This document shows positions 10,398 through 52,473 of a stretch of 64,000 nucleotides of DNA, piece by piece. Each line of letters starts with the position of its first letter. Positions within the stretch are counted from its first letter, which is position 1. A program made the translations under genes and the position numbers. The stretch is from Methanomicrobiales archaeon HGW-Methanomicrobiales-3 (GTDB taxonomy: Archaea > Halobacteriota > Methanomicrobia > Methanomicrobiales > Methanospirillaceae): contig PGYK01000008.1 in the NCBI GenBank assembly GCA_002839605.1, positions 62,001 through 126,000 of the forward strand, in the 5' to 3' direction. The notes beneath the pieces were generated by a model. It ran no database searches and was not told the origin of the DNA. It saw nothing but the letters and a program-made list of their open reading frames with translations.

Positions 10398-10516
10398 ACA
10401 TTGGGGGCCTTGCCGCCCCCATAAGGAGTGCAAGGATTCGGGCGAGGACGTTATTTTCAGGCATAATTTTCATGGTTCGGGTGTGAACATCCGTTCATGT
10501 GCGTTCCTCCAGAGCA
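10398..10516 (-). repeat. Mosaic intergenic element, modules A3'-A1 (inverted copy)
   Basis: TTGGGGGCCTTGCCGCCCCC followed by ATAAGGAGTGCAAGG, GGGCGAGGACGTTATTTT, then the A1 core with GTTCATGTGCGTTCCTCCAG. The same arrangement recurs almost base for base at 18.56-18.67 kb. Confidence 0.7.
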
Positions 10517-11183: not shown

Positions 11184-11694
11184 TTTTTTCCTGTTCATGG
11201 GGAATCGCTCAACGATACCGGTAACCCCGGGCACACAAAATCTCCTTTTTGGAACATTTCCCGAAAATATTGCTCTGGTGAAATCATTTTTGTTATGGTG
11301 GGGGCAAACTGCTCCCATACCCTGTTTAAGATGCCTGCCGCCACCCCCGCGGGGCGCCCCCGTGGCGGCCTCAATTACAAGTCTTCCGAACCGGAGATTG
11401 CCCCGCCGTACTCCGTGAGGGGGCCAGAATAGGGGGTGCTTAAAAGAAATCTGCAGTGTGGCATTTTCCTTGGTTTTAGGGCGAACTCCCTTTCCTGCCC
11501 GTTTCAACAGAGCACATTTTTGTACCGGGTTCCCTCGTTCGTGATGGATCCCGGTTCCTGTGCTTTTTCATTGAGAGGAAAACGTCTTCCTTTCAGCTTC
11601 TTTGAATTGAACCACACGATTGCATACGGGTGTGACGTGGAAATTCTACGGTCAAGAAAAATTATTGGTAAAAAAATGAGCAGGCCCGGCAGGA
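11184..11694. other. Gene-free spacer between convergent genes
   Basis: The only structure seen is one inverted copy of the mosaic element (11337-11515) and an AT-rich end. No conserved open frame was found. Confidence 0.5.
11337..11515 (-). repeat. Mosaic intergenic element, modules A2-A1 (inverted copy)
   Basis: The A2 hairpin is at 11337-11369 with arms GCCGCCAC and GTGGCGGC. The conserved spacer follows (GAGGGGGCCAGAAT, GTGCTTAAAAGAAATC), then a decayed A1 module (GGGCGAACTCCCTTTCCTG). The spacer matches the 36.4-kb copy on the opposite strand. Confidence 0.7.
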
Positions 11695-18315: not shown

Positions 18316-18670
18316 CGCCACCCCGGCACAGGGCGTCCCCTCTGGCGGCTCATCCTCCGCGACGGGATAATGAATTGATCGTCTATCAGATATACTGGAA
18401 AGAGCGGGGAACCGTTTTCTGCTCTGGAGAAATTCTATCCGCCCTTCCGGATTTGATTAAGATGGAGCCACGGACGCTCGGGGTCTCGTCGACCCTCGCC
18501 CCGTGGAGCAGGCCGTTAACGGGCACCTGGAAAAAGGATGATTGAAACCGGGGGTTTTGGGGACTTGCCGCCCCCATAAGGAGCGCAAGGATGCGGGCGA
18601 GGACGTTATTTTTTTAGGATTTTTCATGCTCCCGGGTGTGAACTCCCGTTCATGTGCGTTTCTCCAGATC
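18316..18670. repeat. Mosaic intergenic element, A2-like, A4, A3' and A1 modules
   Basis: The 473-nt spacer 18214-18686 has no gene. It contains an A2-like hairpin (CCGCCA with TGGCGG, 18318-18351), a full A4 hairpin at 18464-18513 (GCCACGGACGCTCGGGGTC, then CGTGGAGCA), a 3' block matching 10398-10516 and an A1 core GTGTGAACTCCCGTTCATG in minus orientation. Confidence 0.7.
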
Positions 18671-18686
18671 TTTTTTCATCCTCTCA

Positions 18687-25781: not shown

Positions 25782-26009
25782 CATCAACATCTCCTCCTCA
25801 TTTTCTCACACCCGGTATCCAACAGGATAAACGAGTATGTCCCGGTTCCTGTTTCCAGAAAATCGCATCAGCTATTTTTGGGTAGTGCCACATTTCCTTC
25901 CTTCGTATCCGGCACCTTTACTACCCTGCGGCTTCCGAAGAAACCACTCCCCCGGGAACCTGCCCCTCCGATAATAAGGAGATGCCCCCCCTCCCCCCTC
26001 CCCCCCTCA

Positions 26010-26200
26010 CGCGCCGCCCCGCACCCGCGAGCACCAACCCGGCCGACGGCAACGTGATCTTTCGGACCGCTTCCGGCACCCCCCCTCCCCTCCTCCGGAC
26101 GTTTGGACCATGGGGGGGTGGGTCCCCTCCGGAAAATAATGGGAGGGGGGGCAGGGGTACCCCCTCGCACCAACGCCCGGGGGGTCACCCCCTTCCGGAA
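26010..26200 (+). repeat. Repeat family B, copy 1
   Basis: Contains CACCCGCGAGCACCAACCCG, GACGGCAACGT, GACCGCTTCCGGCACCCCCC and CTCCGGACGTTTGGACCATG, then GGGTCCCCTCCGGAAAATAA and a G-tract. Two closely similar copies lie at 28018-28170 and 33585-33725. Confidence 0.75.
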
Positions 26201-26283
26201 AATTCATGATGGGGGGTCGGTCCGAATTTGGGAAAATGGGAGGCTGTCCCCCCGCACCCCCGGCCCCGGAATTTTCCATTCAT

Positions 26284-26412
26284 CTCCCGCCGTGAACTGC
26301 AAGACCCGCAGCCTTCCCGCAGATGAGTACAGGGGCCCCCGGGACGCGAAGGGGGGTGGGGGTCCGGCGCTGACCCCCCATGGGGGAGAGGGGGGGTTGC
26401 AGCGGATTTGAA
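26284..26412 (+). repeat. Repeat family C, copy 1
   Basis: CTCCCGCCGTGAAC, GACCCGCAGCCTTCCCGC, CCCCGGGACGCGAAGGGGGG, GACCCCCCATG, GGATTTGAAAAT in the same order as at 31811-31962. Confidence 0.75.
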
Positions 26413-26537
26413 AATTTTCGATGGGGGGTTTACCGGGTGACTCCCTGCGCAATTTCTTTTAAGGCTGCTTAATAGCATATTGCACACAAAAAGCGATTAT
26501 ATCATCAGGTGAATACAACATAGTATCAGGAATTCCC

Positions 26538-26711
26538 ATGACTGCTGCCGGACAGTACGTAATCGATGAGAAAGGCAACAAGGTTGCCGTCCTCCTCCCG
26601 CTTGCGGAATACGAGCACCTCAAGGAAGATCTCCATGATCTTGCCATGGTTGCCGAGCGGCGGGATGAAGGCACGATTAGCCTTGCCGAGCTGAAGAAAC
26701 GCGTACTGTGA
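26538..26711 (+). CDS. Antitoxin of a RelE-type module (Phd/YefM-like)
   Basis: This 57-residue protein resembles small prevent-host-death or RelB-type antitoxins. QYVIDEKGNKVAVLLPLAEY (residues 6-25) is the N-terminal DNA-binding strand-helix pattern, followed by a helix, LKEDLHDLAMVAERRDE. It lies 9 nt upstream of a RelE toxin that is frameshifted, so the module is probably no longer toxic and the antitoxin may be relic or act on other toxins. Confidence 0.7.
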   Translation: MTAAGQYVIDEKGNKVAVLLPLAEYEHLKEDLHDLAMVAERRDEGTISLAELKKRVL

Positions 26712-26720
26712 GCCGGGTGG

Positions 26721-26988
26721 ATGGATCCGTATTCCGTTGCGGTTAAAAAGAGCGCTGATAAGGACCTCCGGAAAATCCCCCTGCGAAATTATTCCGCACA
26801 TTTTTGAGCATATTGAAAACCTGGCTAGTGATCCCGTTCCCCACCATGCCCATAAAATTACCGGCACAGAAAACCTGTACCGGATCCGCGTTGGAGATTA
26901 TCGCGTAATCTACCAGGTCCTGCATGAATGTCATCAAGTGACTGTAATATATATCCGGCACCGGAGTGTTGTATATCGCGGATTGTAA
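26721..26988 (+). pseudogene. RelE-family toxin with a frameshift
   Basis: The N-terminus MDPYSVAVKKSADKDLRKIP starts at 26721 in one frame, then the remainder, EIIPHIFEHIENLASDP through VTVIYIRHRSVVYRGL, continues in the +1 frame. The switch falls at a C5 tract (26777-26781), where one extra C would explain it. Together the two parts make a normal 88-residue RelE with the C-terminal RIRVGDYRVIYQV core. Loss by slippage in the C-run, a reversible phase change or an assembly error are all possible. Confidence 0.75.
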
Positions 26989-27247
26989 TCGACTGTGGTA
27001 ATTTTCATGTATCGTTGTGATGTTCCTCCAGGGTTTCGTTCCGGTATTTTCCAAAAAACAAACTCGCCGCAAAGGCCCCCTCCGGCCTGGCGGTCGTCCA
27101 TCGCATATCCCCAAGGTCCCAAAAAATTGTCACTTCAAGAGGGAGCCCACCCCTCCACCATCGCGGCGACCCCCCTGCCCCCTCGTACCCTCCGCCCCGC
27201 AAATTCCCTATCCGTTTTTGCCATCCCGAGAGAGCGCACAGGACAAG

Positions 27248-27256
27248 GTTTTATGG
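27248..27256 (+). promoter_or_regulatory. Likely TATA box of hicAB
   Basis: GTTTTATGG lies about 36 nt before the hicA ATG. Confidence 0.35.
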
Positions 27257-27287
27257 GTAGAGTGACATAGTACGATTCGTAGATACG

Positions 27288-27494
27288 ATGCGCACCATCA
27301 AGATTCGTAAGTTGATCAAACTGATCGAATCTGACGGGTGGTTTTTGCATCGCGAGAAAGGAAGTCACCGACAGTACCGGCATCCTGTCAAATCCGGCTT
27401 GGTAACTGTCCCTGGTCACATGGATGATGACGTGAATCCTGCAACGTTACAGAGTATATTGAAACAGGCTGGTTTGAAAACAGAGGGAACGTAA
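27288..27494 (+). CDS. hicA: HicA toxin
   Basis: This 68-residue double-stranded RNA-binding-fold mRNA interferase of the HicA family carries the catalytic histidine in EKGSHRQYRHP (residues ~24-34), and the fold hallmarks LIKLIESDGWFLHRE and LKQAGL. HicA cleaves mRNA; HicB neutralises it. The stop is directly followed by the HicB ATG. Confidence 0.9.
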   Translation: MRTIKIRKLIKLIESDGWFLHREKGSHRQYRHPVKSGLVTVPGHMDDDVNPATLQSILKQAGLKTEGT

Positions 27495-27758
27495 ATGGTA
27501 TCGTTTACCATAATCATCGAAGCGGGGAAAAGAAATTTCTCTGCATACTGCCCGGATCTTCCCGGATGTATCAGTACCGGCAAGACCGAAGAAGAGACAA
27601 TCAAAAATATGAAAGAGGCAATTGAATTTCACCTTGAGGGATTACGGGAAACAGATGGACCCCTTCCATGCCCTGTTTCAAAAGCAAGAAAAGTTCAAAT
27701 CTCCAAAAAATTCGAAACCACGAAAAAATCTGAAAGAAAACACTGTGCAGCAGCATAA
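27495..27758 (+). CDS. hicB: HicB antitoxin
   Basis: This 87-residue HicB has the partial RNase H-like fold: FTIIIEAGKRNFSAYCPDLP with GCISTGKTEEETIKNMKEAI. The AYCPDLPGC motif is standard. The start abuts hicA. The C-terminal tail is basic and lacks an obvious HTH or ribbon-helix-helix, so DNA binding for autoregulation is uncertain. Confidence 0.88.
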   Translation: MVSFTIIIEAGKRNFSAYCPDLPGCISTGKTEEETIKNMKEAIEFHLEGLRETDGPLPCPVSKARKVQISKKFETTKKSERKHCAAA

Positions 27759-27866
27759 TGTGTTGGCACCATTTTTTTTTAATTCACCAGGAAGCAGCAG
27801 GCCCATTTTGACACGTTCATTGGTGACAATCGATCCGCAGCGGGGCGCACTACTGGGAATCGTTTG

Positions 27867-27890
27867 TCACATCAGCGAGGTCTGATGTGA
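27867..27890. repeat. Perfect 9-bp hairpin
   Basis: TCACATCAG and CTGATGTGA are perfectly complementary around a 6-nt loop, about 110 nt after hicB. No T-tract follows, so a terminator is less likely than an operator or RNA structure. Confidence 0.55.
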
Positions 27891-28017
27891 GAAGAAACCC
27901 CGGGTTCTTCGAACTGGTGGCCGTGCATCGCAATTTCCTTCCTGCTCCCAGCCCACCACACATCCCGGCCGTCCGGCCGGACCCATGAGGGCCCCCTCCC
28001 TCCCCCTGCCCCCCCTC

Positions 28018-28170
28018 ACGCACCGCCCCGCACCCGCGAGCACCAACCCGCCCGACGGCAACGTACTCTGTCAGACCGCTTCCGGCACCCCCCCTCCCCC
28101 CCTCCGGACATCTGGACCGTGGGGGGGTGGGTCCCCTCCGGAAAATAATGGGTGGGGGGGAGGTACCCCC
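28018..28170 (+). repeat. Repeat family B, copy 2
   Basis: Near-identical to copy 1: CACCCGCGAGCACCAACCCG, GACGGCAACGT, GACCGCTTCCGGCACCCCCC, GTGGGGGGGTGGGTCC, CTCCGGAAAATAATGG. The spacer 27759-28446 has no gene. Confidence 0.75.
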
Positions 28171-28345
28171 ACCCCCCCTACCCGATTATGATAACGATGC
28201 GGGAATTCACCGCGGATCCCCCGGCCACTTCCCGGGCGATTCCGCCGGTGCCAGGGTTTTTTGGTGCTACTCAAAAATGGGATAATGGGTGGCCCGGGTC
28301 CCGCAAGAAGGGGGGGAGGTCCCCCCCTCTCCCCCCCTATGAGGC

Positions 28346-28440
28346 AGGGGGGGTGGGCCCCCTCCGGAAAAATAACGGGAGGGGGGGTAGGGGTACCCCC
28401 CCGCACCAACGCTCCCGGCCGGACGGGTCAGGAATCTCCT
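28346..28440 (+). repeat. Partial copy of the 3' part of repeat family B
   Basis: GGGGGTGGGCCCCCTCCGG, AAAATAACGGGAGGGGGGG, TACCCCCCCGCACCAACGC matches the second half of the 26.1-kb copy (CCGGAAAATAATGGGAGG, GTACCCCCTCGCACCAACGC). Confidence 0.6.
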
Positions 28441-28446
28441 CACCGT

Positions 28447-28632
28447 TCAATACGGAATCCTGAACCCGCGCCGGTCCCGTTGTTCCATATGGATACAATA
28501 CGGGTATTGTTCCCGGTACCGTTCGCAGGCTTCTTTCCTGCAGGGGACCGGCGCCGCTGCTGTCTGCTTTTTTCCCGGTTCTTTTGCATAGCACCACAGG
28601 CTGATCGGATTTGAGTACTTCTTGTCGTCCAT
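28447..28632 (-). CDS. Small cysteine-containing protein, unknown
   Basis: A 61-residue frame from the ATG at 28632 has four cysteines (LWCYAKEP, PCRKEACERY, YCIHMEQ) and a mixed charged composition that looks protein-like. The Cys pattern could bind metal. No family is recognised. It lies downstream of the YgiT-type gene on the same strand. Confidence 0.4.
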   Translation of the reverse strand: MDDKKYSNPISLWCYAKEPGKKQTAAAPVPCRKEACERYREQYPYCIHMEQRDRRGFRIPY

Positions 28633-28797
28633 GAGTACTCGTTGCAGAATACGGGTATGAAGGAAAGGATGGCAGCGGGTGAAAGTGGTATGCAATAATT
28701 TCTTCCTCCGCCCCGGCAGTGGCCGGGGGGTTGGTACGGTTTTGAAAAAAAAAGTGGAGGGGGGGTAGGGCGGGAATCCCCCGTATATCGGAAAAAT

Positions 28798-29043
28798 TTA
28801 CCCCTTCAGCGAAACTTCTCCGGCAGGAAGCGGCCGCATGCACAGTTTTTTCTCATGAGCGTCCCGCATAACCTCATCAATTTTCCGGGAAGTCCCTGTA
28901 GTCTAATACGCTTCCCCGCACTGCTCGCAGATATACGCCGGTACATCCTTGATAATGATGACCTCTCCGGCAACATGTGCCATAAATTCCGTTTTCCCTT
29001 CACGGAGTTTTCCCCTGCAGAAGCTGCAACGATCCGGAATCAT
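28798..29043 (-). pseudogene. YgiT-type zinc-finger protein with an in-frame UAG
   Basis: The frame from ATG 29043 reads DRCSFCRGKLREGKTEFM, VAGEVIIIKDVPAYIC, EQCGEAY, then TAG at 28905-28903 (codon 47), and continues in frame with TSRKIDEVMRDAHEKKL to a TAA at 28800-28798. The two CxxC pairs and the following helix are the build of YgiT/MqsA-type antitoxins. A Tyr codon (TAC) in family members commonly sits where TAG is, so a nonsense mutation is the simplest view. Only a 46-residue zinc-finger half would be made. UAG readthrough would give a full 81-residue protein. Confidence 0.65.
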
Positions 29044-29060
29044 GATATGATCCTCTATTC

Positions 29061-29453
29061 TTAAGTCCGTGATCGAAACGGATTTACTATCCTGAGCCCG
29101 GGTACATGGGCAAAATCCTTCTCATTCCGGGTAACAAGCGTCGCGTCCAGGGATAATGCCGAGGCCGCGATAACAGCATCGGGGAGAGTAATGTTTATGT
29201 TTGTCCTCAGCTCGATAACGTTTTCCGCGAGCGTATCGGTGAGGGGAATGCACCGTGCACAGTCTAGAAGCCTGCGTGCCTGGTCCATCCCGTCCGGAGT
29301 GTGCCCTTTCCAGCCAAGAAGTTCGATCCTCGTAATGATTGAGATATTGAACGATTCCTGTAAAATTGAATCAACTGATAATTTTTCCGAGGGATCAAAA
29401 GCGCCGGCAAGGTAATAGATCAGGATATTCGTGTCCACCAGGTAGGTTGTCAT
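29061..29453 (-). CDS. vapC: VapC-type PIN-domain toxin
   Basis: This 130-residue PIN RNase has acidic active-site residues visible in YLVDTNILIYY (D near residue 6), TRIELLGW (E), and LPDAVIAASAL (D), plus TRNEKDFAHV near the end. VapC toxins cut tRNA or rRNA. The start MTTYLVDTN at 29453 overlaps the antitoxin stop by 4 nt (ATGA). The next gene downstream, 17 nt on, is the broken YgiT-type gene. Confidence 0.88.
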   Translation of the reverse strand: MTTYLVDTNILIYYLAGAFDPSEKLSVDSILQESFNISIITRIELLGWKGHTPDGMDQARRLLDCARCIPLTDTLAENVIELRTNINITLPDAVIAASALSLDATLVTRNEKDFAHVPGLRIVNPFRSRT

Positions 29454-29656
29454 ACCCGGTCCCACTCTTTCCGGAGGGATTCGGCCACTCCTTTTGGATC
29501 TTTGATGAGATCCCGGTATACCCCGTAGTAATCCTGCGGGTTGCAGGGCTCATGTCGGGAGTTCCGGAGCTGGAGCGTCTTCTCCCAGAGTTCTATAGGA
29601 ACGATGACACTCTTTTTGTTGCCTCCAGCATCGTACACGTACTGGATCTCATTCAT
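29450..29656 (-). CDS. VapB-type antitoxin
   Basis: This 68-residue protein is MNEIQYVYDAGGNKKSVIVP then IELWEKTLQLRN, with a C-terminus that would wrap a PIN toxin (VAESLRKEWDRV). It resembles a group of small antitoxins preceding PIN genes. The frame is open upstream to 29932, but that extension covers a KilA-N remnant in another frame and is not used. Coupled to vapC by overlap. Confidence 0.75.
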   Translation of the reverse strand: MNEIQYVYDAGGNKKSVIVPIELWEKTLQLRNSRHEPCNPQDYYGVYRDLIKDPKGVAESLRKEWDRV

Positions 29657-30164
29657 TACATCTTCATTGTTCCTGTGAAAGAATATAGTTTTTCTCACAT
29701 CCCGTGCGAGCCCCGCTCCACAATCCCCCGGGCGTTGGTCTTTTCGATCCACTAGCGTGCAATCAGAATAAAAATTTCTCAGGCCCGTCTGTTCTAATCC
29801 CATCGAATTCGACGGGATTAAAATCCGGGTTGTTGAGCTGGTCCCATACGTCAGGGAATTCAATAGCATCTCCCCCTGCGCAACACCATCCCACCAACAA
29901 CATATTATCCAAAAATATCTTTCCTTAGACAATCAAATGCACCGCACCCCTCAGTATCACAATGAAAGGGGGAGCGGACCAGTCCGTACCGACCGCAGAA
30001 CAAAAACCATTCCGACACAACGGAGATGAAAGTATAGTCACAACCATCCGCAAAAAAAACCAGCCGGCCCGGCAATTCCGCCATGCGCCGGATGCAGTAC
30101 AGCAATCGTTGACAACATTACCCGCCTACAAACCGGGCAGAAAAATATCCCGGGGGCCCGGCCC
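29657..30164. other. Spacer with a decayed gene fragment
   Basis: The only structure seen is the KilA-N-like remnant (29763-29870) and AT-rich sequence around 29930-30060. Confidence 0.4.
29763..29870 (-). pseudogene. Remnant of a KilA-N-type protein
   Basis: A 35-residue stretch DAIEFPDVWDQLNNPDFNPV and EFDGIRTDGPEKFLF ends in a TGA. The pattern W-x-Q-[L]-x-NP-x-F-x-x-x-EFDG matches the linker after KilA-N domains, found in phage and defence-type proteins. No complete domain is upstream in any frame. It appears to be the left-over of an accessory gene. Confidence 0.5.
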
Positions 30165-30590
30165 ATGAGCCGCGGAGCCCGCCCGCACAAGGCGCTCGAT
30201 GAGGCGATCCCCATCGCAAAAGCACGCGGCCTCATCCAGATGGCGCTGGGCGGGCCGGAGCGGATCTTCGACATCGCGATCGTCTCGAAGATACCGGTTA
30301 CGTTCGTAGGAATAATGTTCGCGCCAAAAATTCTCGCGGCGATTCCGGAGCTCGCGGAGTATTACCGGAAAGATCTCGCACGGCTCCGGCTCATCGCCCG
30401 CGACGCTGCGGTGACAATCGAGCTCTGGATCCGGTCCCGGCACGGCACGTGGAGATTTTTCCAGGTCACGCCGTCAACGCTCGTGGAGATCGATCGCGAG
30501 GGGAAGCGGCTGGAGTCGGGGCAGACGATCGCGTACCTGGCCGGGGTCGCTCTCCGGGAGCAGGGCGGGGCAACCACTGCACCGTCGTAA
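30165..30590 (+). CDS. Unknown protein
   Basis: This 141-residue protein was not recognised. It starts with basic residues (MSRGARPHKALDEAIPIAKA), has a mixed hydrophobic core (FDIAIVSKIPVTFVGIMFAP) and ends in a helix. It contains scattered conserved-looking aromatic and charged positions (IELWIRSRHGTWRFFQV) that recall nuclease-like folds, but no catalytic motif can be named. GC content and codon use look genuine. It has a single-gene setting between toxin-antitoxin modules. Confidence 0.5.
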   Translation: MSRGARPHKALDEAIPIAKARGLIQMALGGPERIFDIAIVSKIPVTFVGIMFAPKILAAIPELAEYYRKDLARLRLIARDAAVTIELWIRSRHGTWRFFQVTPSTLVEIDREGKRLESGQTIAYLAGVALREQGGATTAPS

Positions 30591-31070
30591 AACCCCTTTT
30601 CCCCCCTCCCTCCCGGGGGAGAAAATCGGAGCCCGTATTAAGCCCGGTTTCATGAGTTTTGCCTCACCCCCCATTCTGGCAGAGGCAATGTTACCCAAAA
30701 ACGCGGTAATTTGTCCGGAAAAGATCGTGGTTTTACGACGGGAATTGGTGAGGCAGTATGGAGCAACGTTACAGCGGCGGGCGGCGGTGAGATCCCGGGA
30801 AGAGCAAAGGGATCTGCCCGAGAGGGGGTTTTCCGGCATTGCGCCGGGACCCCCCACCCCCATGCCAGGGGGGTCTGACCAATTTTTAAAAAATCATGGG
30901 GGGGTCCCCTGCATGCCAGGGATCATCCGTGAGATCCCGCGAGTCCCGCACGGTGTCACCTGCACCGCAGCACCCCGGCAACGACTCACCTTCGCCCCGC
31001 GTGGTTCCGGATTTATCACCTCCCGGTGTCTCAACTTGTTGAAAGATCCAGAAAAACCGGGGAACTCCAG
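30591..31070. other. Gene-free spacer with G-rich segment
   Basis: No conserved gene. 30846-30908 holds ACCCCCCACCCCCATG, CCAGGGGGGTCTGACC and AAATCATGGGGGGGTCC, a degenerate relative of the C and G blocks of repeat families B/C. The frame open from 30652 translates into the repeat and is not used. Confidence 0.4.
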
Positions 31071-31511
31071 ATGAAAATCTACATGGATGTCTGCTGCCTG
31101 TGCCGGCCGTTCGATGCGAGAAGACACCCGCGTACACATCTGGAGATGGAAGCAATCGTCGCGATACTGGACCGGTGCCGGTCCGGCTGGGATCTGGTTT
31201 CCAGCGATGTTATCTCATATGAGATTCTCCAGATACGCGACCAAAGAAGGCTGATAAATATCAGGAAAATCCTCGCCCTGGCAAAAGAAACGGTTGTAAT
31301 AGATGATCGGTTAGAAGGAAGGGCAGCAGAGTTTGCGGACGCCGGTATCGACGCAATGGACGCACTTCACATTGCAAGCGCTGAACAGGCCGGGGCACTT
31401 TTCCTCACAACTGATGATGCAGTTATAAAAACTATCAAGACAACAGGCATCAATATCAGTGTACGCGTCTGCAATCCGGTCGAATGGTACCTGGAGGTGA
31501 AAGATTCTTGA
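31071..31511 (+). CDS. PIN-domain protein (VapC-like)
   Basis: This 146-residue PIN protein of the type starting MKIYMDVCCLCRPFD has active-site acids in MDVCC (D), SYEILQIRDQ (E), DAMDALHIASA (D) and LTTDDAVIKT (D). This subgroup is often paired with a small downstream gene in archaea and cyanobacteria. The start is the ATG at 31071; the frame is open from 31026. The TGA overlaps the TTG of the partner (TTGA). Confidence 0.82.
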   Translation: MKIYMDVCCLCRPFDARRHPRTHLEMEAIVAILDRCRSGWDLVSSDVISYEILQIRDQRRLINIRKILALAKETVVIDDRLEGRAAEFADAGIDAMDALHIASAEQAGALFLTTDDAVIKTIKTTGINISVRVCNPVEWYLEVKDS

Positions 31512-31714
31512 AAGCGAAAACACTCAATGAAGTTCATGCGGAAGGAATGGATGCGCTTTTAAAAGTACTCGGGCCTGTGGACACGATTCGCTTTCTCCGG
31601 ATGTTCGATGAAGGAGAAGGAGACTATACAAAAGAGCGGAAGGCCTGGCTTAAGGAGGATGTTCACGAAATATCCCGCGAGATCCGGGAAATGAAAAAGA
31701 AGCAGGTCATCTGA
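31508..31714 (+). CDS. Partner of the PIN toxin, probable antitoxin
   Basis: This 68-residue protein starts with TTG overlapping the PIN stop: KAKTLNEVHAEGMDALLKVL then GPVDTIRFLRMFDEGEGDYT and a charged C-terminal helix. Similar proteins occur next to PIN genes of the same subgroup. No DNA-binding motif is clear. A start at 31484 would lie inside the PIN gene and is not supported by a ribosome site. Confidence 0.65.
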   Translation: MKAKTLNEVHAEGMDALLKVLGPVDTIRFLRMFDEGEGDYTKERKAWLKEDVHEISREIREMKKKQVI

Positions 31715-31810
31715 TTTTTTTCCTGGAATAATCACCGGTAACTGCAGACATTCTATTCATTTTTCACCTTTCATCTTCCGCGAGCCACCCGCCCGGCATC
31801 CCGCGTGCAC

Positions 31811-31962
31811 CTCCCGCCGTGAACGCACAAACCCGCAGCCTTCCCGCGAATAAGGGGGGTGGGTCCCCGGGACGCGAAGGGGGGAGGGGGTCAGCCGCGG
31901 ACCCCCCATGGTATGGGTGGGGGGTTGGTCCGGATTTGAAAATAACGGGAGGGGGGATTAGC
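31811..31962 (+). repeat. Repeat family C, copy 2
   Basis: CTCCCGCCGTGAAC, AACCCGCAGCCTTCCCGC, CCCCGGGACGCGAAGGGGGG, GGACCCCCCATGG and GGATTTGAAAAT, parallel to 26284-26412. The spacer 31715-32023 has no gene. Confidence 0.7.
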
Positions 31963-32023
31963 GGGTGACCCCCCCATGCCCCGGCCTCAAAATTCCCACA
32001 CCGCGGATTGTCCGGCGCAATTT

Positions 32024-32647
32024 TTACCTTGGGAGTCGCTCGATACAGGCACAGGTTGCTGGTACGGGAGGGGCGACCTGGCTTCGGAATTCCACCGTCT
32101 GGATTTCTTTAATGCGCCATCCTCTTTCAACCGTAAACTGTTTTTGTAATTCTTCCGGTGAAATGTTCCTTGGTACATTTGGTATGGGAAATTCAATGGC
32201 AAACTCATGGAGATAATAACAGCCATGCGGTTTCAGGATTGATGCAACTTCATCAATCAATTGCTCGCACTGGCCGGGATTGAATAAATGATAGAAGCCC
32301 GAATCAAAAACAGCTCCAAACTTTTCCCGGAGTAAGGAGGGCCTGAGTGCGTCAGCGACGTGAAAACGTAACGGTAGAGCAGTCCCATGGGGAAGGGCAG
32401 CAACCTTATCCTGGGCGTTCTTAATAGCGGATTCAACAAAATCAATCCCAAGAACCTGATACCCCAACGTTGCTAAATAAATCGCAAGATCGCCAGAGCC
32501 GCAACCGAGATCCAAAACCGGATTTTTTGGCGGAAATTTTTCAATAAGTACAGCCATCGCAGGCTGTGGTGCTCCAATATCCCAGGGAGCACTATTCTGG
32601 TACACGGTAGTGAAAAAACTCAGCGGGTCAGAACCAAATCTACTCAT
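32024..32647 (-). CDS. SAM-dependent methyltransferase
   Basis: This 207-residue class I methyltransferase has VLDLGCGSGDLAIYLATLGY near residues 39-58, GIDFVESAI and FHVADALRP. It begins 2 nt after a small membrane-protein frame with a GGAG site. The overall form is like thiopurine/tellurite-type methyltransferases (PF13649/PF05724), so the substrate cannot be named. Confidence 0.8.
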   Translation of the reverse strand: MSRFGSDPLSFFTTVYQNSAPWDIGAPQPAMAVLIEKFPPKNPVLDLGCGSGDLAIYLATLGYQVLGIDFVESAIKNAQDKVAALPHGTALPLRFHVADALRPSLLREKFGAVFDSGFYHLFNPGQCEQLIDEVASILKPHGCYYLHEFAIEFPIPNVPRNISPEELQKQFTVERGWRIKEIQTVEFRSQVAPPVPATCACIERLPR

Positions 32648-32649
32648 GA

Positions 32650-32829
32650 TTATTCTCCAAAAAGTGTTCTGTGATATGAGCGCCTGGCAAAACGTTCAGT
32701 TGTTTTTGCATTCGTAGCTCGTCTATTCTTTGGATCCTGACAATTCAGGCCGGTCCTTCGCCCACAACTTTGGCAACGCCATTGCCATAGAATAAGTGCG
32801 GACAACCCCACCCCCATGCAACTGAGCAT
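32650..32829 (-). CDS. Possible small membrane protein with a Cys pair
   Basis: A 59-residue frame has a hydrophobic helix (MLSCMGVGLSALILWQW) followed by RCQSCGRRTGLNCQD, a zinc-ribbon-like CxxC. It fits tightly between the lipoprotein gene (20 nt after it) and the methyltransferase. It is weakly supported; the translation could be chance. Confidence 0.35.
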   Translation of the reverse strand: MLSCMGVGLSALILWQWRCQSCGRRTGLNCQDPKNRRATNAKTTERFARRSYHRTLFGE

Positions 32830-32848
32830 TTCACCAGAGATGAAAAAA

Positions 32849-33478
32849 TTACCTGATTTTTGCCTCTGCAACGCCTGCCAGGTTTTTGAGCGTTGCATAA
32901 TCGGCAGCGGTCCCGTTCGTGTACAATTCCATGTACACATCCTGTTTTGAGAAGACGATTACGTACTCGGGTGGTTCATCATTTTTATCGGAAAGTTTCA
33001 TGCCCCTGCTGAAATCCCCGATGGATGGCAGGGACGGATCATCTTCAACGGACCTGTTGGCCCGGTCTTCGTCAGCCCAGTTTTTTACTAGTTGCAGGGT
33101 ATCCGGGACAATGAGGGTGATATTTTCCGCAGGATAGACCGAGAGTGCCTGGTCGATAATAATACCGGACGATGCAGTCCCGTCCTGTTTCTGGTAGGCA
33201 GCAAAATACCCGCCTTTCCAGCCGTGTTCGAGCGACCAGGAACGCATCTCAGATATATTCCTGTCACCTTTCTCCAGCAGGACAAAACCCGCCGGGAGAT
33301 CGGATGGCTGTAACGCCATCTCCGCGGGTGCGACCGTTGAGAGTTTCTGGGCCGGGGCAGGTGATGCAGCCGGGACCTGGGTTGCAGGGCCTGACGATGT
33401 GCACCCCGCGATTCCTGCAGTGAGAAGAAGGAGAACGGTCATGACCGTCATCACTCGGGATTTGAATTCGCTTGTCAT
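32849..33478 (-). CDS. Lipoprotein of unknown function
   Basis: This 209-residue lipoprotein has an N-terminal helix and lipobox LLTAGIAGCTSS (Cys at about residue 26), a low-complexity Pro/Ala linker, then a globular domain including QPSDLPAGFVLLEKGDRN. Similar small lipoproteins with a LPxGF motif are common in Methanomicrobiales and uncharacterised. It sits on the extracytoplasmic face. Confidence 0.7.
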   Translation of the reverse strand: MTSEFKSRVMTVMTVLLLLTAGIAGCTSSGPATQVPAASPAPAQKLSTVAPAEMALQPSDLPAGFVLLEKGDRNISEMRSWSLEHGWKGGYFAAYQKQDGTASSGIIIDQALSVYPAENITLIVPDTLQLVKNWADEDRANRSVEDDPSLPSIGDFSRGMKLSDKNDEPPEYVIVFSKQDVYMELYTNGTAADYATLKNLAGVAEAKIR

Positions 33479-33584
33479 GTCTTATGCATATCCCCCACTT
33501 ACGGATGAAGGTATGCCCGGTCCGCGTTGGTACATCCCCCACTCTCCCTCCTGGGGCAACGCCCCTTCCCCCTACCCACTTCAC

Positions 33585-33725
33585 CCAATCGCCCCCCTCC
33601 CGTGAGCACCAATCCGGCCGACGGCAACGTGCTCTGTCGGACCGCTTCCGGCACCCCCCTCCCCCCTCCGGACATCTGGACCGTGGGGGGGGTCGCCCCC
33701 TTCCGGAAAAATTCATGGGGGGTTG
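33585..33725 (+). repeat. Repeat family B, copy 3
   Basis: CCCGTGAGCACCAATCCGGC, GACGGCAACGT, GACCGCTTCCGGCACCCCC, CCGGACATCTGGACCGTGGG, CTTCCGGAAAAATTCATGG. The surrounding spacer 33479-33886 has no gene. Confidence 0.75.
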
Positions 33726-33886
33726 ATGTGGTTTTGAAAAAAATAAGGGCGATCAAAAACCCTCCCAAAAAACCGCTTACCGTTTTTCATTGCAAAATCG
33801 ATCAGCGATTTCTCCCAAAAAAACACACCCCGCGGTTATTTTACAAAAACCAGATCACGATCGAACCAGCCGAAAAAAGAATAAGA

Positions 33887-36317: not shown

Positions 36318-36351
36318 CACGACATTAGGAGAGTCCATGAAAATTTATGTT

Positions 36352-36800
36352 CTGGAGAAACGCACATGAACCGATCGGGTTCGCACCCGAACGATGAAAA
36401 ACACTAAACGGGGGATTTCTTTTAAGCATCCCCGATTCTGGCCCCCTCGCGGAGTACCGCGGGCAGTCTCTGGTTCGTGAAACCGGTAATGAAAGCCGCC
36501 GCGGGGCGCCCTTCGGGGCGGCGGCAGTAATCCCCACGGGGGTATGGGGGCATCAGCCCCCATAATCTATTCTTCTGGAAATCCGTTTTTCATTGAGAAA
36601 ACCTGCCAGAAATCATCGATTAATCTACGATGGAGCCACGGGCTCTCTCCGCCTCGTCAGGGCATGCCTTTGTGGAGCAAGCCGCTACCGGGAATTGCGT
36701 TTGAAAACCTGGGTCAACTGAGAGGGTCAAGGGGGCTTTCCCCCGCAGGCTGCCTCCCCCTTTGGGGGAAAGAGGGGGGGGTCACACTCAGAAATTCCAC
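36352..36800 (+). repeat. Mosaic intergenic element, full A1-A2-A3-A4-A5 copy
   Basis: Modules in order: A1 at 36352-36398 (CTGGAGAAACGCACATGAAC), spacer, A2 hairpin 36495-36525, A3 hairpin 36543-36564 (arms TATGGGGGC / GCCCCCATA, perfect 9 bp, loop ATCA), A4 variant 36631-36680, A5 from about 36730 (GGGTCAAGGGGGCTTTCCCC, then GGGGGGGTCAC). The spacer 36190-36888 has no gene. Confidence 0.75.
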
Positions 36801-36888
36801 TCGTACGCATCACGAATCATTTAACGAATCCGGGAAACAAAGGAAAAAACCGTACGCCTGACCGGCAAAAGAACCGGTCCAGGCAAGG

Positions 36889-43284: not shown

Positions 43285-43359
43285 TCTCTCTTTTGTGCCG
43301 GACGGGTGGGTAAAGCTGATTTTCCTCTGCCCGGGAAAAATTTTAATACGGATTTTTGC

Positions 43360-43830
43360 TCTGGTGAAACGCACATGAACGCGAGTTCACACCCGAACTA
43401 TGAAAACTGTAACTCATTTTTTGGGGGAAGATTACCCCGCCTCAAAGTCTCTTGCGAGGCACGGCGGGGCGGATTACCGGGTATGATATGAAACCGAATT
43501 GAGGCCGCCACAGGCGCGCCCCGCGGGGGTGGCGGCAGGAATCGTAATCGGGGGTATGGGGGTTTCAACCCCCATAATCAATTTTCTGATAATCCGTTTT
43601 TCATGAGAAATGTTAACCACCCTTCTGAATTCGATTGCGATGAAGCCACGGGCGCTCGGGGTCTCGTCGACCCTCGCCCCGTGGAGCATGAACGAGGCTG
43701 GGGATTTATGAGTGAAAATTGCAAAATGGGGGTCAAGGGGTATCGCCCCCGCATGCTGTCTCTCTCTCTGGGGGAGTGAGGGGGTCACCTTCACAAATTC
43801 CACTGGGCGTTTCAAAAAGGATTTTGACAG
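43360..43830 (+). repeat. Mosaic intergenic element, full A1-A2-A3-A4-A5 copy
   Basis: A1 at 43360-43404 (GAAACGCACATGAACGCGAG), A2 hairpin 43504-43536 with arms GCCGCCAC/GTGGCGGC, A3 hairpin 43555-43576 with arms TATGGGGGT/ACCCCCATA (loop TTCA), A4 at 43640-43688, A5 at about 43735-43825 ending in GGGCGTTTCAAAAAGGATTT. It fills the spacer 43285-43864. Confidence 0.78.
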
Positions 43831-43864
43831 AGCCGGATTTTTGTATCAGTGATATTCTGACGGA

Positions 43865-46144: not shown

Positions 46145-46744
46145 CGGACAGTAATCCCTCGCAGGTTGTTCGTGATTGCTGACAGGGCAGGCAGTGGGGG
46201 TGATGCACGGTTTTGAGTGCGTCACCGCTCTGCCCGGCGGAAAAAATGCTGTCAGGTTTCCTTACTCTTTCTATTCAGGAAGCGTTATTAATCATGTGAT
46301 GGATGGCCTGCCGTGAAATTTTACTCCCATTTTGTCCGCCCTGATGCCCGGTTATGGTTAAAAAGCTGCCGTGGAGCACCAGCGATGAAACACTCGTACA
46401 GAATCGCGTCCGGGATTTTTGCAGGGATGAGTAAAAAGTTCGTGCTGTGGGCGCCCGGAAAAACCGCGGCCGGGCGGGGCTTTTGGCCCGCGAATAGTAA
46501 AAAAAGATACATCCATCGGCTCTGTAGAAATCCTGACCACCCTTCTGGATTCGATTGCGATGGAGCCACGGGCGCTCGGGGTCTCGTCGACCCTCGCCCC
46601 GTGGAGCATGAACGAGGGGGGGTCAAGGGGGATCGCCCCCTTGGGCTGCCTCCCTCCTCTTTAGGTAGAGAGGGGGTCACCTTCACAAATTCCACTGAGC
46701 GTTTCAAAAAAGGATTTCAACAGACCCCATCCATCCACGCTGCT
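46145..46744. other. Gene-free spacer
   Basis: Apart from the repeat at 46540-46735, no gene or signal beyond a possible TATA region near 46285 was found. Confidence 0.4.
46540..46735 (+). repeat. Mosaic intergenic element, A4-A5 copy
   Basis: A4 at 46559-46608 (GCCACGGGCGCTCGGGGTC, then CCCCGTGGAGCATG) followed by A5 (GGGTCAAGGGGGATCGCCCC, GAGGGGGTCACCTTCACAAA, TTCCACTGAGCG). Almost identical to the second half of the 43.4-kb copy, which shows that the A4-A5 block moves or is copied without A1-A3. Confidence 0.75.
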
Positions 46745-47530: not shown

Positions 47531-48307
47531 AGGAATGTCCTGCCTTGATTTCGGGAAGGTCCGGTATATCTTTGTAGTATGCAGTGTTCATTCCTAAATT
47601 CTTCGATCGGGTGTGGGGGACTATTGCAGATGTCACGCGAAGGAACAAAAGCAAGAAAGGTTCCGGAGGACCGTGCATGAACAAGTTTTCCGGTGAGAGG
47701 GAAAATATTTGGATGCTTGGCACAGAAGAAAAGCGGACGAAAATTTTCCCCTGCAATGCGATGGGGCCACGGGCGCTCGGGGTCTCATCGACCCTCGCCC
47801 CGAGGAGCATGGCTGTGTTTCGGGCTCTCTTGTGAAAAAACCAAAACGGGGTAGTGATCAAGTGGGGGCGTCCGCACATGTCACCCCCTCCGGGGAAGAG
47901 GGATTCTTCTTCTCTCACTCCTTTGGATGAGTATAATGATGTTCACTCCAGAACCGTATCGAAAAAAGTCACATTAAAGCCGCCGCGGGAGCGCCCCCGC
48001 GGGGGCGGCGGCAGGAATCGCTGTCGGGGGTATGGGGGCATCAGCCCCCATAATTGATTTTTTTGCATGATTTTCATGAGAAAACCTGGTATTTTGGATG
48101 ATTCCTATCTCTTCCCGCCACGTTATCTCCCGCAGGGGGTGGCCGGGTGTGCGATGATTGGACGAAGCCGGTTACCGATACGCCGTCTTTATCGCAAAAG
48201 CCGGGGAAGGCCACGATTGTGCGGGGCGAAGTGGTTACGAAAGTCCCCCAAAGCATCTGAAAAACCACCGGCAATCTTTCCAGAGCCAAAAAAAAGACCT
48301 GCCTCCC
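47531..48307. other. Spacer filled with mosaic repeats
   Basis: No gene. It contains the A4-A5-like and A2-A3 modules listed separately, and a short GC-rich coding-like frame (48158-48300) that is a shadow of the membrane-protein gene downstream. Confidence 0.45.
47757..48075 (+). repeat. Mosaic intergenic element, A4-A5'-A2-A3 copy (reordered)
   Basis: A4 at 47757-47812 (GCCACGGGCGCTCGGGGTC, then CGACCCTCGCCCCGAGGAG), a decayed A5-like block to about 47890, A2 hairpin 47979-48012, A3 hairpin 48031-48052 (arms TATGGGGGC/GCCCCCATA). Here A4 precedes A2-A3, the reverse of the order at 36.4 and 43.4 kb. Confidence 0.75.
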
Positions 48308-50746: not shown

Positions 50747-51565
50747 ATGACAGATGTTTTTACAGGAAAGATTGCAGTCGTGACCGGGGGCACCTCCGGA
50801 ATCGGCTACGCGGTAGCAGAAGAGTTGTTAAAACGCGGCGCGACCGTCTGGGTTATCGGCAGCCGGCAGGAGAGTGTTGAGAAGGCGAAAGTGTCCTTTG
50901 CCGCGTATACGAACGCGAGGTTTGCGGCCGTGGACGTTCGTAACAATGCCGCGGTTGAGAAGATGGTACAGGACTGCGTCCAAAAGGATGGCCGGCTCGA
51001 CTACCTCTTCAACAATGCCGGCATCAGCCAGAAGAACCCGTACGAGGAAAGCACCCTTGATGACTGGAAGGAGATGATCGACATCAATCTTTGGGGTGTC
51101 ATCTACGGGATCAACGCGGCGCTCCCGGTGATGCGGGCGCAGAAGTCCGGCCACATCATTAACACCTCCTCGGTTGCCGCGCTCTTTGGTACCCCGTACC
51201 AGTCCCTGTATGTTACGACAAAGAACGCGGTGATCGGTCTGACGGACTGCCTGTATTACGAGTATCTCCCACTAAACATCGTCTTCACAGCGGTCTGCCC
51301 GGGTGATGTTGCAACGCCGATATTCAAGGGGCGGATACCCGAGGGTGCCGTTCCGGTTGAGGTGGCCGCCCGGATCATCCTTGACGGCGTGGCACAAAAG
51401 GAACGCATGGTTGTCTTCCCGGAATTTATGCGCGAGGTGCTGGAGAAGTGCAAGGATCCGGTGTTCCGGGACATGGCACACAAACAGGCCGAGGCGGATA
51501 CCCGCGCAATCTTCGAGTCTCCGGAGTACCGGAAGTTCAAGGCAGCGCAGAAGAATCTGCGGTAA
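50747..51565 (+). CDS. Short-chain dehydrogenase/reductase 1
   Basis: This 272-residue SDR has the cofactor loop VTGGTSGIGYAVAEELL (residues ~11-27), NNAG (~90) and the catalytic Ser/Tyr/Lys set with Tyr-x3-Lys in LYVTTKNAV (residues ~163-170). The reaction is oxidation/reduction of a keto or hydroxy compound; the coenzyme is not certain. The first ~155 nt are nearly identical to those of SDR 2. It is 9 nt after the decarboxylase-like gene. Confidence 0.87.
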   Translation: MTDVFTGKIAVVTGGTSGIGYAVAEELLKRGATVWVIGSRQESVEKAKVSFAAYTNARFAAVDVRNNAAVEKMVQDCVQKDGRLDYLFNNAGISQKNPYEESTLDDWKEMIDINLWGVIYGINAALPVMRAQKSGHIINTSSVAALFGTPYQSLYVTTKNAVIGLTDCLYYEYLPLNIVFTAVCPGDVATPIFKGRIPEGAVPVEVAARIILDGVAQKERMVVFPEFMREVLEKCKDPVFRDMAHKQAEADTRAIFESPEYRKFKAAQKNLR

Positions 51566-51642
51566 CCATACGGAGACCGTAGGCGGGCAACCGGGTGTAT
51601 GCCCGTGGAATGAGTTGTACATGTACTAAAAAGGTGAAATCT

Positions 51643-52473
51643 ATGACAGATGTTTTTGCAGGAAAGATTGCAGTCGTGACCGGGGGCACCTCCGGAATCG
51701 GCTACGCGGTAGCAGAAGAATTGTTAAAACGCGGCGCAACGGTCTGGGTAATCGGCAGCCGTCAGGAGAGCGTTGAGAAGGCGAAAGTGTCCTTTGGCAG
51801 GTATGCGAACGCACGGTTTGCGGCCGTGGATGTAACCGTTGCCGATGAGGTACGGGGGATGATCGAGACCTGCGTGCGGGAGTCCGGTCGTCTCGACTAC
51901 CTCTTCAACAATGCCGGCATCGGCATGACGCACCCGAGCGCGTACCTGACGCTCGACATGTGGAAGAAGGCCGTTGACCTCAACCTCTGGGGGGTCATCT
52001 ACGGGATCCATTTTTCCCTGCCGGTCATGCTTGCGCAGAAGAGCGGGCATATCGTGAACACCTCTTCCCTTGCCGGGATCCTCCCCCTGCCTTCCCAGAC
52101 CGTGTACTGTGCAACCAAGTTTGCCGTCACGGGTATGACCGAGGCGTTGCGCTACGAATATGCAGATTATGGCATCGCGTTTACGAGTGTCTGCCCGGCC
52201 AATGTCGCAACTGCAATCTTTGGCAAAGCCGAGGTCCCAAAAGAGGCAATTCCGGCCGATGAGGCGGCGCGGACGATCCTTGCAGGTGTTGAGAAGAAAG
52301 AGGGGATCATCATCTTACCGGCATTTGCAAAAACCCTGTACGAACGCCTCTCAAAAGACCCGGAACTGAAGGAAAAGTTCATGCTCGAGTATGCGAAGCG
52401 CCGCAACGAAGGATGGGTAAAATGTGTTCCCTACCTGGGTGTCCCGGATGATATCCTGGAAATGAGCCGGTAA
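51643..52473 (+). CDS. Short-chain dehydrogenase/reductase 2
   Basis: This 276-residue SDR has the same N-terminus (MTDVFAGKIAVVTGGTSGIG), NNAGIG and the catalytic TVYCATKFAVTGM. From about residue 50 it differs from SDR 1, with distinct substrate loops and C-terminus, so the pair is not redundant. The ATG at 51643 is chosen over an in-frame 51595 start because it aligns with SDR 1. It lies 78 nt after SDR 1. Confidence 0.87.
   Translation: MTDVFAGKIAVVTGGTSGIGYAVAEELLKRGATVWVIGSRQESVEKAKVSFGRYANARFAAVDVTVADEVRGMIETCVRESGRLDYLFNNAGIGMTHPSAYLTLDMWKKAVDLNLWGVIYGIHFSLPVMLAQKSGHIVNTSSLAGILPLPSQTVYCATKFAVTGMTEALRYEYADYGIAFTSVCPANVATAIFGKAEVPKEAIPADEAARTILAGVEKKEGIIILPAFAKTLYERLSKDPELKEKFMLEYAKRRNEGWVKCVPYLGVPDDILEMSR

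Follow-up and report, generated by a model that had tools for sequence, protein, structure and literature searches.

Paired base changes in the hairpins of a MITE core found across Methanoregula and related genera

How do paired base changes arise in the stems of short intergenic hairpins, and do such changes identify an RNA? The question is raised by two hairpins, A2 and A3, that recur in the window, the whole stretch of 64,000 nucleotides of archaeal DNA that was analysed. The arms of A3 are TATGGGGGC/GCCCCCATA in the copies at 36.5 and 48.0 kb, and TATGGGGGT/ACCCCCATA in the copy at 43.6 kb, the full sites being TATGGGGGCATCAGCCCCCATA at 36543-36564 and 48031-48052 and TATGGGGGTTTCAACCCCCATA at 43555-43576 (forward strand), where the closing pair is the T-A allele. 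The arms of A2 are GCCGCCG/CGGCGGC in the 36.5-kb copy, and GCCGCCAC/GTGGCGGC, the A-T allele, at 43504-43536 (forward strand, arms at 43504-43511 and 43529-43536), and also on the minus strand at 11.3 kb. The preliminary description of this DNA had quoted these arms and pointed to paired stem changes between C-G and T-A in A3 and between G-C and A-T in A2; all the arms are present at the places it gave, and the paired changes are real in the window copies. A further hairpin, H1 (CCCCGCC..GGCGGGG, 43435-43470, forward strand), lies 5' of A2, as it also does in relatives such as G015. The A2 and A3 hairpins are not products of chance, since the A3 pattern has three matches in the window and none in every shuffle, and the folding energies of both hairpins, with RNA as well as DNA models, are well below those of shuffled sequence (z of about -2.3 to -3.8).

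At 43.5 kb the two hairpins sit inside a gene-less, intergenic MITE of about 478 bp, which is an ordinary class of element and which the preliminary description had missed. The full composite element, in which an M2 body is fused to an M1 body, occupies 43357-43834 on the forward strand (478 bp, ends within one base), between the left terminal inverted repeat TGCTCTGGTGAAAC (43357-43370, forward strand) and a degenerate right terminal inverted repeat, TTTTGACAGAGCC (43822-43834, minus strand). It is flanked by the 8-bp target duplication CGGATTTT, at 43349-43356 and 43834-43841, which extends to ten bases, the flanks being alike over CGGATTTTTG. The A2-A3 core cassette covers 43500-43580 (forward strand) and is followed by the M1 body (43600-43834, forward strand), which contains a hairpin at about 43645-43687 and is also found alone as a MITE of about 210-240 bp, as at 46518-46727 (forward strand), where a perfect 8-bp duplication, CATCCATC, surrounds it. 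M2 likewise stands alone as a 244-bp MITE at 11271-11514 (minus strand), with A2, A3 and both ends. The window also holds a second composite M2+M1 copy at 36348-36822 (forward strand, right end poorly defined), a copy of the A2-A3 core at 47963-48084 (forward strand) that adjoins an M1 fragment (47723-47956), and a related element at 18420-18671 (forward strand), in which the left part of M1 is joined to another hairpin module and both terminal repeats are present. An extra hairpin module (GGGGGCCTTGCCGCCCCCATAAGGAG.. GGGCGAGGACGTTATTTT) occurs at 10401-10457 and 18556-18612, with 93% identity, and is used in other mosaic copies.

The terminal inverted repeat TGCTCTGNNGAAAC starts the full-length copies and its inverse ends them, in M1, M2 and composite forms alike, and in one composite (L068) M1 is joined in the opposite orientation. 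Several two-ended copies have 8-bp target duplications (CATCCATC, ATTATCCG, AAAATTTC and others), some other copies have none, and GCAACTGG and CGATTTCA are legible as duplications in the flanks of further copies. The other copies measure about 210-700 bp, and all are too short for a transposase gene. A DNA search of the genome to which the window belongs (2.59 Mb, 18 contigs) with 43430-43850 as query found 59 places, and counts of ends and cores indicate that this genome, which belongs to the methanogen genus Methanoregula, carries about 100 copies of the MITE. The genes on either side of the 43357-43834 element are also neighbours in genome G013, about 130 bp apart and with no element match between them; this is an empty site as judged by the gene pair, since no alignment was obtained at the exact target bases. 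The repeats, the duplications and the filled site are thus read directly from the DNA. Two other features were observed in the window: a family of G-rich repeats (GGGGGGTGGGTCCCCTCCGGAAAATAATGGG), with 3 to 6 copies within 8 kb at 25985-33731, which by eye is unrelated to the MITE, and a tandem duplication at 50747-52473 of neighbouring open reading frames of 272 and 292 aa, spaced by about 0.9 kb, with DNA identities of 93% and 71% in two blocks.

What might move such an element is suggested by its ends. A search with contig ends of the window's own genome revealed, in relatives, elements of about 1.0 kb. One of these, a 998-bp insertion sequence (L082, 349-1346) surrounded by the duplication CCTATTTC, has the ends TGCTCTGTAGAAA and an 8-bp duplication like the MITE; unlike the MITE, it encodes a 317-aa DDE transposase, which matches NF033579 (IS5 family) with 190 bits against a cut-off of 140, and also PF01609, and, so far as seen, its interior shows no relation to the MITE body. 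Because the ends and the duplication length are common to the MITE and the 998-bp insertion sequence, we infer that an IS5-family transposase most likely moves the MITE in trans. Assemblies tend to break inside repeated elements. No intact IS5-family copy was found in the assembly of the window's own genome, in which several contigs break 97-120 bases inside sequence that opens with the MITE terminal repeat, and the ends of contigs C3, C10, C11, C13, C15 and C18 (L060-L064) stop within IS5-family element ends. Since these six breaks all fall within one or other end of the element, the genome probably contains at least three IS5-family copies that the assembly does not resolve. An IS6 (IS240) transposase, suggested as mover by the 8-bp duplication and a similar end, was rejected, as PF13610 is absent from this genome. 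MITEs mobilised in trans by insertion sequences include archaeal examples in Haloquadratum walsbyi (PMC3119063; reviewed in PMC10969869), and the present element resembles them in being short, non-coding, multicopy and intergenic, and in sharing terminal repeats and duplication length with an insertion sequence; it differs in its GC-rich multi-hairpin body, in the composite of M2 and M1 in either orientation, and in having one core under two kinds of ends.

The covariation of the stem partners was analysed by an R-scape-type test, as proposed in the preliminary description. The sample consisted of 206 distinct copies from the same and related genomes, which were aligned by sequence only and placed on a tree, and APC-corrected G-statistics were compared with those of columns evolved independently on that tree, with an R-scape-like script of our own rather than R-scape, under a tree model that ignores recombination, though the copies recombine. 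The A3 closing pair is C-G in 143 copies, T-A in 49, C-A in 7 and T-G in 1, with E=0.0013 over the 15 stem pairs and 0.3 over all column pairs, and the A2 pair is G-C in 187, A-T in 9, A-C in 5 and G-T in 4, with E=0.29. The A3 covariation is therefore real and beyond phylogeny, and the independent variation of stem partners that would have spoken against the preliminary description did not occur there, whereas for A2 covariation beyond phylogeny is not significant. When the partners were slid by 1-3 columns, Watson-Crick cells fell from 96% to 38-63%. Parsimony gives 20 double Watson-Crick changes versus 105 changes to non-Watson-Crick pairs (34 G-U, 29 A-C and 42 other). Two A2 loop column pairs scored above A3 in the scan; these are probably alignment effects of length variants, and were set aside.

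Part of the A3 signal is explained by exchange of whole hairpins among copies, since the A3 alleles carry a linked, unpaired loop base (C-ATCA-G versus T-CTCA-A). Taken to its limit, this would mean that recombination or gene conversion spreads a small number of intact hairpin alleles between elements, from one double change and with no repeated compensation, an explanation that we take seriously while leaning against it. It accords with the association of the alleles with the loop base (column 71 with columns 70 and 75, E=0.6-0.7 in a first run of 162 copies), with inner A2 segments that are discrete variants, and with the visibly mosaic elements. However, loop and pair are separable, as C-ATCA-G, C-TTCA-G, T-ATCA-A, T-TTCA-A and T-CTCA-A are all found; parsimony counts seven C-G to T-A events, a number that recombination can inflate; and the basal A-T pair of A3 has become G-C on both sides in other genera, as well as in some Methanoregula copies (10 copies; E=0.21).

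The core extends well beyond this MITE. A pattern scan gave matches in Methanoregula genomes, and a sequence-only model detects the A2-A3 core in 38 of 39 genomes of that genus, with at least 115 matches in the window's own genome. Sister genera within the family also have the core, at lower copy number, and there it is carried by terminal repeats of another kind. In most genomes other than that of the window, the DNA on either side of the core has no relation to the MITE described above, and in G015, G003, G171, G113 and G134 the core is enclosed by a second type of terminal repeat, GGCTCTTCGCTGTTTTG or a variant of it, the duplications there being of 7-9 bp (8-bp included), for example ACTTTTTT and TTTTTTGG. 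Both kinds of terminal repeats have GCTCT near the tip, and the ends may have been swapped or may have diverged. The core, of about 75 nt, appears to be older than the ends of the MITE in the window, and it is carried by two kinds of ends. ISL3 was rejected as partner of the second terminal repeat, as one is present in G015 and none in G113 or G171, and L252 is without such ends. In G171, a 1,054-bp stretch between second-type terminal repeats (L259, 209-1265) has no recognisable transposase; it could be either an autonomous partner that has decayed or a MITE of compound make-up. It is conceivable, if rather improbable, that A2-A3 is itself the functional unit, perhaps a DNA hairpin that serves as the recognition site of a host protein or a replication protein, and that it persists by means of two kinds of transposon ends, the ends being exchangeable vehicles and the hairpins conserved cargo. 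The family-wide conservation of the core could reflect a function that an RNA-neutral view has missed.

That A2-A3 is instead a structured RNA (a 3' UTR element, a terminator or a small RNA) that travels with the MITE under selection for RNA base pairing seems to us unlikely. The hairpins do fold strongly with RNA parameters, the UUCG loop is frequent in the short form of A2, and the core is kept while its flanks diverge. Gene contexts, which rest on heuristic ORF calling, are convergent for 26 and divergent for 7 of 66 core copies, which would suit such an RNA, but is also expected if insertions near promoters are removed. Against an RNA, a search of the window with Rfam gave no family at the gathering score, and in tandem gene contexts the core shows no preference for either strand (14 versus 19). 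One-sided stem changes have no wobble bias, the inferred G-U and A-C events being about equal (34 and 29), so that neither strand shows the tolerance typical of RNA, the A3 intermediate is C-A (7 copies) and not T-G (1), and variants at the first position of UUCG (ATCG, GTCG) are as common as UNCG variants. Since wobble does not exceed A-C, the A3 intermediate is mainly C-A, the tetraloop varies beyond UNCG, and both orientations occur in tandem contexts, RNA selection on A2-A3 is not supported, and the covariation does not identify an RNA. The preliminary description had read the paired changes as the result of selection on RNA or hairpin-DNA structure; A3 does covary, but that reading was too strong, given the lack of G-U bias, the linked loop base, and the fact that template switching suffices without selection.

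It is highly improbable that the element belongs to the palindromic REP/REPIN or IS200/IS605 types, whose mover would be a Y1 tyrosine transposase with single-strand hairpins as its recognition sites, for although small GC-rich intergenic hairpins in about 100 copies, with compensatory changes as in REPINs (PMC3116915), and the dispersed, extragenic nature of the repeats recall REPINs and BIMEs, Y1_Tnp (PF01797) is absent from the window's own genome and from 34 of the 39 genomes of the genus (present in 5), and terminal inverted repeats as well as 8-bp duplications are present, in contrast to the IS200/IS605-derived PATEs as defined in PMC3119063, which lack terminal inverted repeats and carry palindromes related to IS605 elements near their termini. 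No linked RAYT (Y1) transposase was found in this genome. The ERIC and RU-1 repeat units of enterobacteria fold stably. They too are intergenic and have been likened to MITEs (PMC2759123), and their hosts are an unrelated taxon. Among the papers searched, none dealt with Methanoregula repeats.

We consider it probable, with good confidence, that the hairpins A2 and A3 together form the core of a MITE moved in trans by an IS5-family transposase, and that the symmetry of their arms is kept at the level of DNA. The core, which two kinds of terminal repeats have carried within the family, would predate its present ends, and arm symmetry would be kept by selection on single-stranded DNA hairpins, by homogenisation of the arms through template switching, or by both, which the sequences do not separate. 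Recombination among the roughly 100 copies would then spread each hairpin allele, so that the paired A3 changes would need no RNA. We favour symmetry at the DNA level because no RNA signature is seen, because the arms of inverted repeats are homogenised by template switching even when no selection acts (PMC8604942), and because compensatory changes are common in REPIN hairpins (PMC3116915).

With more than 200 copies from several genera, the A2-A3 core provides a tested instance in which a mobile DNA hairpin shows compensatory change and no RNA signature is seen, and covariation by itself is thus no proof of RNA. If the core is cargo of different transposon ends, it would be a tractable case of MITE bodies that outlive their partner transposase, and one well suited to telling selection on single-stranded DNA hairpins apart from template-switch homogenisation.
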